Positions 30,469 through 36,354 of a stretch of DNA of 64,000 nucleotides are shown here, in pieces. Position 1 is the stretch's first letter; each line of letters begins with the position of its first letter. The notes under the pieces are model-generated. The model did not search any database and had not been told where the DNA came from. It saw only the letters and a program-made list of their open reading frames with translations. A program made the position numbers and the translations under genes. This DNA comes from Terebella lapidaria (lineage: Eukaryota; Annelida; Polychaeta; Terebellida; Terebellidae), in the NCBI GenBank assembly GCA_949152475.1, contig OX424568.1:6361667-6425666 (forward strand), given 5' to 3'.

Positions 30469-32330
30469 AGGTTATCGGACCATAGACCATAGGACCTATT
30501 GCCGTCACGTTGCGTCCGTCGTCGTCGTCGTCGTCCGTCGTCCACATTTTTATCTTTTTTGTTTACGGTCGAATCTTTCTGAAATTTTGCACAAAAATGC
30601 CTAAAAATATTTCGAGAGGGAGGTATTTTTTTGTTTTTTGATTTTCGCATTTCTTTCAAAATGGCGGCCGTTTTCGTGGAAAAATCGCCAATTTTGGACT
30701 TTGGCGGTAGTTTTCTCAAAATCTGTTCAGTACTCCTCATATATACCCCTATGATGTGTATAAGTTTCGTTGCCCTTGAATCGCTCGAAGTGGGCCATTT
30801 TGGGCCCAAATGGGACATTCCCATGTTAAATTCTCCTATGCTTCATAATGGGACACGTTATGCCTAATATCCCACTTAGTATTGAGATTAGAGACTAGGA
30901 ATCAATTGTGGACATATAGGAAATGATATCTGCTGAAAATCCTCATGACCTTGAATTTGACCTTTGACCTCATTTTCAAGGTCAAAGCACAAAATGGCTA
31001 ATATCTCACTTATTATAGACTTTACAGCTTAGATATCAATTGTGGACATATAGGAAATGATATCAGTCGAATATTCTCGTGACGTCGAATTTGACCTTTC
31101 ACCTCATTTTCAAGGTCAAAGCACAAAATGACTAATATCTCGCTTATTATCGACTTCACAGCTTAGAAATCAATTGTGGACATATAGGAAATGATATATG
31201 CTGAATATTCTGATGACCTTGAATTTGACCTTTGACCTCCTTTTCAAGGTCAAAGCACAAAATGGCTAATATCTCACTTATTATGGACTTTACAGCTCAG
31301 ATATCAATTGTGGACATATAGGAAATGATATCGGCCGATTTTTCTCATGACCTTGAATCTGACCTTTGACCTCATTTTCTAGGTCAAAGCACAAAATGGC
31401 TAATATCTCGCTTATTATGGACTTTACAGCTTAGGAATCAATTGTGAACATATAGGAAATTATATATGCTGAATATTCTGATGACCTTGAATTTGACCTT
31501 TGACCTCCTTTTCAAGGTCAAAGCACAAAATGGCTAATATCTCACTTATTATGGACTTTACAGCTCAGATATCAATTGTGGACATATAGGAAATGATATC
31601 GGCCGATTTTTCTCATGACCTTGAATCTGACCTTTGACCTCATTTTCTAGGTCAAAGCACAAAATGGCTAATATCTCGCTTATTATGGACTTTACAGCTT
31701 AGGAATCAATTGTGAACATATAGGAAATTATATATGCTGAATATTCTCGTGACCTTGAATTTGACCTTTGACCTCATTTCCAAGGTCACAGGACAAAAAT
31801 GATATCTCGCTTATTATCGACTTTACAGCTTAGGAATCAATTGTGAACATATAGGAAATGATATATGCTGAATATTCTCGTGACCTTGAATTTGACCTTT
31901 GACCTCATTTTCAAGGTCACATGACAAAATGGCTAATATCTCGCTTATTATCGACTTTACAGCTTAGGAATCAATTGTGAACATATAGGAAATGATATAT
32001 GCTGAATATTCTCGTGATCTTGAATTTGACCTCTGACCTCGGTTTCAAGGTCACATGACAAAATGGCTAATATCTCGCTTATTATCGACTTTACAGCTTA
32101 GGAATCAATTGTGAACATATAGGAAATGATATATGCTGAATATTCTCGTGACCTTGAATTTGACCTCTGACCTCGATTTCAAGGTCAGAGCAGCCGTTTT
32201 CGTCGAAAAATGGCCAATTTTGGACTTTGATGGTCGTTTTCTCAAAATCTGTTCAGTAACTTTTTTTCTTATTGATGTATTAACTGTACATATTTTGCAT
32301 ATTACTGAATATATGTTCTCTTTCCAGTTC
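30469..32330 (+). repeat. GGTTACC-family element with expanded 133-bp internal units
   Basis: The 5' end is AGGTTATCGGACCATAGACC, then the CGTCGTCGTCGTCCGTCG run and AAAATGGCGGCCGTTTTCGT. From about 30880 to 32180 there are about ten tandem units of 133-134 bp, each with GACCTTGAATTTGACC, AAATGGCTAATATCTC and ATCAATTGTG.ACATATAGG. It ends with a second piece of the interior (GCCGTTTTCGTCGAAAAATG). The normal 3' signature is absent here. Confidence 0.8.
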
Positions 32331-34284: not shown

Positions 34285-34557
34285 CAGCCATGATAGCTCA
34301 GTTGGTTAAGGCGTTAGGGTTGAGTGCGGGAGGTACCGGGTTCAATCCTTGGCGCCGGCGCTGAAAGACTTTCATTGGGGGATCTGTTTCACCCATCAGT
34401 AAAATGGGTACCTGGCTATAGACAGAGATGGCAATGTGTATGAATACTGTATGTGCACCAGAGATGGTTGCCTAAGTTACAGCTGTATGCCTCCCGGGAG
34501 GTTGAAAATGTGTCGGAATGAACAGGTCTGCCAGGGGTAATAATTGTAAAGCGCTTT
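34285..34557 (+). mobile_element. tRNA-derived SINE, 5' part
   Basis: A tRNA-like head carries an A-box-like TAGCTCAGTTGG at 34294-34305 and a B-box-like GGGTTCAATCC at 34338-34348, the internal RNA polymerase III promoter. A non-tRNA body follows (AAAATGGGTACCTGGCTA, CTCCCGGGAGGTTGAAA) and reaches GTAAAGCGCTTT at 34546-34557, where the giant foldback element interrupts it. ATTATC flanks the complete SINE at 34279-34284 and 42365-42370 as target duplication. It is not a functional tRNA gene: there is no matching acceptor stem, and the anticodon arm is poor. Confidence 0.8.
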
Positions 34558-34567
34558 TAGTGCAGGT

Positions 34568-35884
34568 TGTCAAGAAGTATGGTTTGGGTACGACTCGTGA
34601 ACAGAAAACACCAGTATGTTAATAAATGAGAATTATATTTAAACAAGGCGAATTATATACAAGATGATCGTTATGAGAATTTTGATATGAACAACCCTTA
34701 TACCAGGATACACAATTAGACAATTTACCCACTACAAATATCTATCCCGAGTACAAATGTCCACAATGCAGTGCCACTTCCACAAGGCAACAAGGCGTTC
34801 CACTGAGACAGCTGGGGACGATCCCACGACGTAGTTTTGGCTGTCCCACGAAGACACAGGTCCCACGAAGATAGGTGGTGGTCCCACGTAGACTGCAAGC
34901 GAGTCCCTAACACAGGACAAAGGGCGAGACCGTCTGCACGATGACAGGGACAATGGCGAGACGACAGACAGTTTACACGCACCGCATGGCTGGTCGACTC
35001 TCAATATCAGGTTGACAATCTTTACACAGTACTTGAAACTACAAGTAAAAACACTAGAGTTACCAAATTGTTTACACGACACAAATCGTTCAACTCAATG
35101 TATCTATGGATACCCCTATACATGTAATAAATGACAAAACCGGTTTACTCACGGTCACTGATCTCCACCCAAGCTCCACATCCACTGCACACAACCATCA
35201 GGCATAAAATTTTCGGTATGCACAGTATAGATTCCAATCTGCCATCTGGCAGTAAATTAAAGATTTCAAAATTGACATCCGTCAATTATTTTACAATGCC
35301 TTCTGGCAATAACTCAAATTCACCAATTGACATCCGTCAATCGTCCTACATTGCCATCCGGCAAAATCCACAAAAGTTTGTTCCATCCGGAACTATGCCA
35401 TCTGGCATACTTCAGAAATCACTTCACGCTATCCAGCGTATATACATTAGTAAGGCCATCCGGCCACAGCTACGGCATCCGCCAACTCCAGTCACGTACG
35501 TGTTATCATCTGACCACATTCATAATTGCAATACCCAACCTTTGGCAGTGCAGTGGAATATATAGCATGGGTGGCCACACCTAAAAAACTATCACAGCTC
35601 CTTTGAGCTGTTTGTAATAAACCTGAGTTGCAGGAAATATCGTTTATAACAAAGCCTGGTGTGCACACAACCCAGACAGAACCGGCCAATACCAGTATAT
35701 TCAGGTACCTAAAACTCAACGCGCGTTTACCAAGTGGCTGGACCAGTGACCAGAAATATTTCTTCACACCTCAGTAATTTCAACCACGCTGGGGAAGGAA
35801 CCTGCAAATATAAGTAGTGCAATTACACAAGTGAAAGGTTATCCGCCACCACACCGTTATAAAAAAACATGTCACTGTGTGACA
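34568..35884 (+). mobile_element. Solo LTR, 1,317 bp
   Basis: The segment begins TGTCA and ends TGACA, and is flanked by CAGGT at 34563-34567 and 35885-35889. This is the standard TG..CA structure with a 5-bp duplication. Removing it joins the foldback terminus TAGTGCAGGT to TCTTAGC, exactly as at the opposite terminus. Inside are a TATA-like element near 35559 (GAATATATAGC) and AATAAA near 35614, so the likely transcription orientation is plus. The array of small hairpins at 35239-35483 lies just upstream of the TATA-like element, in what would be U3. No internal retroelement sequence remains. Confidence 0.88.
35239..35483. other. Array of ten micro-hairpins with ATCY-type tetraloops and covarying stems
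   Basis: Perfect short inverted repeats with a four-base loop occur about every 28 bp. The stems and loops are CTGCC-ATCT-GGCAG (35239), AATTGAC-ATCC-GTCAATT (35270), TGCC-TTCT-GGCA (35297), ATTGAC-ATCC-GTCAAT (35326), TTGCC-ATCC-GGCAA (35351), GTTCC-ATCC-GGAAC (35380), TATGCC-ATCT-GGCATA (35394), ACGCT-ATCC-AGCGT (35426), GGCC-ATCC-GGCC (35454) and GGC-ATCC-GCC (35474). The loop is ATCC or ATCT in nine of ten (TTCT once), while the stems differ but always pair. The sequence between hairpins is not repeated. Function unknown. Confidence 0.85.
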
Positions 35885-36354
35885 CAGGTTCTTAGCAAAA
35901 AAATTGTTCACATTGTGATAAAAGCATGAAACTTTGCAGAGGGGTAGAGTATCACCCACTGATCAATATAAGCTAGGGAGCCATTCTCAATATGGCCTGT
36001 GGCGGATATGGCAGCCATTTTTCTTTTTGCAGTGAATCATCTTCAAATGGCCGGTTCGCGAAATTCGTTATTTCTATCTATGCCTGTCAAATATTATCCA
36101 ATATCCACAAAATTGGTATCAAACTGATCGGAATAACAAGGCCAACTCACCTATAACGAAAAAAGATAATTAGATTGAATGTTGTGTAGCAATATGTAAA
36201 AAAACCCCAGTTTTTTGCTTGAATTTTGCGAATTATTCATGGATCTCATAGTCGGGCAGTATAATAGGTGTGCTTGCATCCTCTCCTCCCCCTCCCCCGA
36301 TGATTTTCTGAAATTAATTTCTTTAAGTAATTTCGAACATATTACTGATTATTA

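Follow-up and report, generated by a model that had tools for sequence, protein, structure and literature searches.

Arrays of short sites lying beside retroelement promoters have in the past been a source of insulators and of packaging signals. In bacteria, regulatory RNAs of the CsrB/RsmZ type carry many hairpins with varied stems and GGA-containing loops. In HIV-1, the available text of one source has the zinc knuckles binding GGAG and GGUG tetraloops, and GGAG loop replacement is tolerated for packaging (PMC7599994). For the gypsy insulator, the available portion of another source gives 12 sites within a 340-bp element, placed in the 5' UTR and embedded in AT-rich sequence (PMC2374998). 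Finally, an integrase encoded upstream of the reverse transcriptase is presented, in the accessible sections of two sources, as diagnostic of Ty3/gypsy elements of the Gmr1 clade (PMC8220671, PMC2774666).

The locus described here lies in a 64,000-nucleotide stretch of DNA from the polychaete Terebella lapidaria, the whole of which is called the window. It is an array of ten palindromes within an LTR; the array is real and far above chance. We read it tentatively as a selected hairpin array that would act in the single-stranded nucleic acid of the element as a docking platform. This reading is ranked first, and an array of dimer sites in duplex DNA comes next as a close rival.

The element and the strand of its LTR

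The preliminary description had placed the array inside a solo LTR, and this is borne out by the boundaries found by BLAST among copies and by the CAGGT duplication on either side (Table 1). A DNA search of the genome gives at least 21 places of the family with all or part of the array: 15 nearly identical copies, two old copies, L024 and L025 (79% and 82%, respectively, over the LTR), and the fragments L026, L027, L028, and L082. Four full-length LTR pairs show 0, 3, 4, and 4 differences, and hence the family has been recently active. An identical 5 bp flanks both sides of five LTRs, that of the window among them. Paired LTRs, TG..CA ends, a short target duplication, and a primer site, as expected of an LTR retrotransposon, are all found.

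The element encodes zinc knuckles (zf-CCHC), integrase, and reverse transcriptase, in this order. P0005 matches RVT_1 (E 8.8e-33), and P0004, directly 5' in the same open frame, has integrase C-terminal and rve_3 matches with E of 7e-6 to 5e-4, all under the curated cut-offs. Because integrase is placed before reverse transcriptase, the element appears, by domain order, to be Gmr1-like Ty3/gypsy.

The open frames of a full copy run opposite to the window + strand. After the 5' LTR come ATA and then a primer site, TGGGGGCTCGTCCGGGA (L030:73-89, 3 nt past the LTR), which is complementary to tRNA-Pro genes of this genome at their 3' end. The direction of the frames and the placement of the primer site thus make the window minus strand the sense strand of the LTR. 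The tRNA-Pro primer site is also present in two of seven other resolved families; four have one of two others, and in one none was seen.

In sense, the array occupies LTR positions 402-646, and the best TATA candidate, at 321, lies 81 bp 5' of it. The array had earlier been assigned to U3, 75-320 bp upstream of a TATA-like element; this assignment used the wrong strand, the array being about 80 bp downstream in sense. Differences to L024 number 4/50 at sense 301-350, 4/50 at 351-400, and 3/50 at 401-450, and 7-14 per 47-50 at 651-1000. Another TATA-like sequence, at sense 1226 (8/49 differences to L024 at 1201-1250), would place the array in U3. The array is probably just downstream of the promoter, with transcription putatively starting near sense 350; start and poly(A) sites are both putative.

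Two further features were observed in the surroundings. A tandem array of a 134-bp unit occupies 30860-32192 (10 copies, 90% matches by TRF), and a further copy of the LTR (L006, contig C3) has flanks with repeated matches to it. The LTR is inserted beside a stretch, 34300-34567, that is tRNA-like and SINE-looking on sequence reading, in which ARAGORN calls no tRNA.

Table 1. Features of the solo LTR and of its palindrome array, in window coordinates.
Feature	Position	Strand	Basis or remark
Solo LTR, 1317 bp, TGTCA...TGACA ends	34568..35884	- (sense)	BLAST to other copies, CAGGT duplication, gene direction in full copy
Target-site duplication CAGGT, left	34563..34567	.	5 bp on both LTR sides
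Target-site duplication CAGGT, right	35885..35889	.	5 bp on both LTR sides
Array of ten palindromes, 4-nt centre	35239..35483	-	Centre in sense RGAT, once AGAA; on window + ATCY/TTCT
h1 CTGCC/GGCAG	35239..35252	-	
h2 AATTGAC/GTCAATT	35270..35287	-	
h3 TGCC/GGCA	35297..35308	-	L010: 6 bp
h4 ATTGAC/GTCAAT	35326..35341	-	
h5 TTGCC/GGCAA	35351..35364	-	
h6 GTTCC/GGAAC	35380..35393	-	Old copies: arms kept, two centre bases variable
h7 TATGCC/GGCATA	35394..35409	-	Adjoins h6
h8 ACGCT/AGCGT	35426..35439	-	
h9 GGCC/GGCC	35454..35465	-	
h10 GGC/GCC	35474..35483	-	
TATA-like TATATATT	35557..35564	-	LTR sense position 321, in stretch least different from L024; putative promoter role

Geometry and folding of the array

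All ten micro-hairpins first described at this place were recovered. Along the window + strand, their stems measure 5, 7, 4, 6, 5, 5, 6, 5, 4, and 3 bp, and their centres are ATCC seven times, ATCT twice, and TTCT once; the RGAT of the sense strand is thus GGAT or AGAT. The nonrandomness that had been claimed was checked by shuffling the stretch 2000 times with dinucleotides preserved, and it holds. Nine stems of at least 4 bp with an [AT]TC[CT] centre are observed vs. a mean of 0.02 (maximum 1), and ten of at least 3 bp vs. 0.09 (maximum 2). Over the 64 kb, the + strand has 12 hairpins with a stem of at least 4 bp and such a centre, nine of them in the array, and the minus strand has two.

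The arms of the ten sites are paired at 46/50 positions within 5 bp of the centre. When right arms are permuted among sites, the mean is 30.7 and 0/20000 permutations attain 46; with eight sites, probable duplicates being dropped, 37/40 positions are paired and the permutation fraction is 0.00002. The arms therefore covary among the ten sites, as the remark that stems differ and nevertheless match had implied, around a near-constant centre whose orientation is always the same. Centre-to-centre distances are irregular (mean 25.9 bp, range 15-33), and the ten sites show no 10.5-bp helical phasing (resultant 0.16). The linkers are AT-rich (72%) and, on the window + strand, contain 6 G in 105 bases vs. 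18% G in the LTR.

The view that this is not an ordinary minisatellite stands, since TRF, at score 50, reports no tandem repeat covering the array. The accompanying statement that the sequence between hairpins is unrepeated does not, the sole repeat being a diverged two-copy duplication inside the array (40 nt, 83%, spacing 55), which explains two sites. The h3 stem is longer in the other 14 young copies; at 35296 they all carry T, and the window copy carries A.

Within the array, the sense strand has 11 ATGs, and in eight cases the ATG falls where the loop of a hairpin meets its stem; elsewhere in the LTR there are three in sense 352-401 and five in 647-1317. Those of the array may open short upstream frames. 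Nearby, at 35214-35225, a 12-bp palindrome CGGT-N4-ACCG is present in 12/15 young copies and absent from the window copy, L014, and L021; old copies carry CAATATGTACAG-like sequence there.

In each of four folds, the array stretch beats all 200 shuffles, with z of -2.7 for sense RNA, -7.0 for antisense RNA, and -6.7 and -7.4 for DNA of both strands. In 265 nt of L010, the mean hairpin pair probability is 0.61 in sense RNA and 0.94 in antisense RNA. Weak hairpins in sense are h1 (0.11), h7 (0.24), h10 (0.37), and h5 (0.41), and in longer stretches the sense value is 0.63 and 0.53. Antisense RNA is thus predicted to form the array hairpins better than sense RNA, which would form them partly.

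These predictions favor a reading in which the ten hairpins form in an antisense RNA or in the first cDNA strand made by reverse transcription. All ten would fold in antisense RNA, and with 6 G among the 105 linker bases of this strand, mispairing is hardly possible. However, an antisense promoter and transcript are hypothetical, the G-poor linkers extend a skew of the whole LTR, and five changed pairs in h8 and h9 of L028 are G-U in sense and would mismatch in antisense. We consider this reading quite improbable.

Constraint between copies and possible functions

Arm and linker changes were compared on a shared branch, made up of the changes common to L024 and L025 relative to L010 (main family), during which the element was presumably active; private changes of L024 and L025 include decay after insertion. 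Arm positions were taken from the window copy, and L082 was excluded from every arm/linker count. No array hairpin present in L024 or L025 has been lost in the main family, so that this definition should not create the arm/linker result.

On the shared branch, changes affect 0/92 arm, 4/40 centre, and 10/95 linker positions (arm vs. linker p=0.0015, or p=0.014 when five linker changes that fall within 7 bases are taken as one event). Private changes affect 9/184 arm positions (L024 7, L025 2) and 14/190 linker positions (6 and 8, respectively; p=0.39). Relative to the window copy, L024 has 8/100 arm and 20/105 linker changes (p=0.025), L025 has 2/92 and 20/95 (p=5e-5), and L028, the oldest copy, 15/78 and 24/79 (p=0.14). 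Compared directly, L024 and L025 differ at 9/92 arm and 12/95 linker positions (p=0.65). The word formed by h6 and h7 is found in 20 places, 19 of them without mismatch at specified positions, two h6 centre bases being variable; this count is biased upward, as old fragments may be found by having kept the word. It is exact in five old copies, L024, L025, L027, L028, and L082, and was not found within 3 mismatches in L026, the 21st place.

Unchanged arms around a changing centre are also what an array acting in duplex DNA may show. Each palindrome would then be a two-fold site, its halves separated by a 4-bp spacer, to which a dimeric protein of the host or of the element binds, and the array would be an enhancer, silencer, or insulator by the promoter. 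On the shared branch the arms remained unchanged while the spacer changed, and h6-h7 is mismatch-free in 19/20 places with two spacer bases free; fixed arms with a centre changing over time speak for sequence recognition. The AT-rich linkers and the position beside a probable promoter agree with this reading, for which the gypsy element provides a precedent. On the other hand, the half-sites differ (GCC, GAC, TCC, GCT, GGC) and are nevertheless symmetric, while the spacer is near-constant and oriented, which is the reverse of what is expected of dimer sites; the lack of 10.5-bp phasing also counts against it. The reading is doubtful, although it stands directly behind the first. Motifs of AP-2, YY1, ETS, RFX, and STAT were considered as possible look-alikes of the array sites.

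Between copies, changed pairs are mostly altered on one side. The 24 changed pairs of L024, L025, and L028 comprise, in sense, 8 G-U, 8 A-C, 6 other, and 2 double changes; the A-C pairs would be G-U only in antisense. L024 has eight (five A-C, one G-U, two other), L025 two, both other, and L028 seven G-U, three A-C, two other, and the two double. Both double changes are in h10 of L028, which is poorly aligned; the alignment of L028 is doubtful in parts of h3 as well. The wobble signature was dropped as a strand indicator (8 sense vs. 8 antisense). A covariation check was run on 18 copies (13 distinct rows), L026 and L027 being excluded. In this alignment, 97.6% of cells are paired, as attained by 16/500 shuffles, and the covariation score is 0.036 vs. 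0.030, reached by 14/500 shuffles. The test is weak, with doubles only in L028 h10, and we do not take it as support. Neither in the pairs of L024, L025, and L028 nor in the 18 copies is there a convincing compensatory change. Hence, the proposal that stems are copied or selected for pairing is supported between sites and not between copies. One-sided stem decay, which had been named as evidence against it, is seen in the private changes of old copies and is absent from the branch taken as active.

Arm symmetry could also exist without any function, if an ancestral palindrome had been duplicated and its symmetry maintained by templated (quasipalindrome) mutation. The 40-nt diverged duplication fits this scenario, and the near-constant centre suggests common descent; moreover, stems can be created and repaired by template switching, in the available text of PMC8794818. 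However, neutral homogenization of arms at the linker rate predicts about 4.8/46 changed pairs on the shared branch, and 0 were seen (by a rough calculation, P ~0.006, or 0.04 with a clustered rate). The arms are slower than the linkers on this branch, though this is unclear in the private changes. We regard the absence of function as improbable. A mixed account, unlikely but less so, would make the ten-fold array with its near-fixed oriented loop a multivalent single-strand signal, possibly of first-strand cDNA or antisense RNA, with an arm symmetry due partly to templated repair and partly to selection.

The docking platform remains our first choice because the arms covary between sites around a near-constant oriented centre, which is unexpected for a simple dimer-site consensus. 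The Gmr1-like LTR retrotransposon would carry the array as a cis-acting module, retained by selection during activity. Each site would form a small hairpin, closed by a 4-nt loop and recognized as a hairpin rather than as duplex, and the ten hairpins would jointly offer a multivalent docking platform. This platform would most naturally be carried in the 5' leader of the RNA of the element itself, with the zinc knuckles of Gag, for packaging, or a host RNA-binding protein as the most natural partner. In favor of this reading are the shared branch, on which arms changed less than linkers (0/92 vs. 10/95), the folded stretch that beats shuffles, the TATA-like element 81 bp 5', and the encoded zf-CCHC. 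The loop tolerance of HIV-1 would fit, by analogy, variable centres with fixed arms.

Several observations count against it. Sense RNA is predicted to form the hairpins at a mean probability of only 0.61, compensatory changes between copies are unconvincing, and the exact h6-h7 of five old copies looks like sequence recognition. For L028, the arm/linker difference is nonsignificant (p=0.14). A sense leader would carry the 11 ATGs of the array, the array would belong to U3 if the TATA-like sequence at sense 1226 were used, and an array of this kind is missing from the seven LTRs resolved in other families. Infectivity of RSV was lowered by a foreign tetraloop, according to the available text (PMC7599994).

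Occurrence and comparison with known systems

For LTRs of related families, 131 of 9310 first-look candidate reverse transcriptase rows were scored, and both ends were taken for ten rows. LTR pairs were resolved in seven of the ten; F49 runs off its stretch, and F70a, F56a, and F52 gave no pair. In these seven LTRs, no comparable array was found. The F57 LTR has three GAGT hairpins within a GAGTGTC repeat, and the F56b LTR has loose palindromes with 2-nt centres in excess (22 vs. 10.0, z=4.3), whose clustering does not exceed that in shuffles. Thirty reverse transcriptase loci were also scanned over 1500 bp downstream, 5 of the own family and 25 others (six also among the ten rows). The own-family loci show 13 hairpins with four-base centres in 250 bp; the 25 others have no comparable array, with at most 5-6 hairpins of any centre length from 3 to 6 and unlike centres.

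In a looser test, centres of 0, 2, and 6 also exceed shuffles in the own LTR (2 and 8 in L010), the 2-nt excess partly recounting ATCT centres. We also dropped the idea that palindromes with 4-nt centres are enriched in general, those with centres other than ATCY numbering 2 vs. 0.93 (P=0.24). The genome pattern GCCATCYGGC plus two CATCYG gives 44 matches, 31 in copies of the array LTR and 13 elsewhere, 11 of these on C12 in an apparent minisatellite. The pattern TTGACATCYGTCAA plus GCCNTCYGGC gives 30/30 matches inside the array LTR family. Rfam has 0 matches up to E=1 over 34500-36000, and literature searches found no LTR with a comparable hairpin array, though a published case may still exist.

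Two-fold symmetric sites with differing arms would let recognition of pairing be told from recognition of sequence. In addition, setting a shared, presumably active branch against the private changes of old copies is a means of detecting constraint on a cis element without transcript data.

As in the Gmr1 clade of Ty3/gypsy, LTRs are present and integrase lies upstream of reverse transcriptase. The array LTR is, however, 1317 bp long vs. 337-518 bp in four fish Gmr elements, and the available descriptions of Gmr elements mention no hairpin array. With the Su(Hw) cluster of the gypsy insulator, the array shares short sites (about a dozen over some 340 bp in gypsy), a position in the 5' UTR, here putative, and AT-rich spacers, as far as the accessible text describes it (PMC2374998). 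Su(Hw) sites share one non-palindromic consensus, whereas the array arms vary and are two-fold symmetric. As for Su(Hw)-type YRYTGCATAYYY sites, there is no TGCATA on either strand within 35239-35483; the single TGCATA of the LTR, at 35217, lies outside this interval. Retroviral packaging hairpins (SL2/SL3 of HIV-1, the GACG pair of MuLV) resemble the array in their short stems, their tetraloops, and their link to Gag zinc knuckles. They are few, whereas the array has ten hairpins, a putative position in the transcript, and a sense RNA predicted to fold only partly well. The CsrB/RsmZ-type arrays are alike in hairpin number, in GGA-containing loops, and in varied stems, and no relation is claimed. 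The comparisons with the HIV-1 tetraloops and the gypsy insulator thus concern a possible working principle and imply no class membership. Should the hairpin reading be true, the array would represent an RNA or cDNA signal of a type new for retrotransposons; should the duplex reading be true, it would be a gypsy-insulator-like cluster in the Gmr1 clade.
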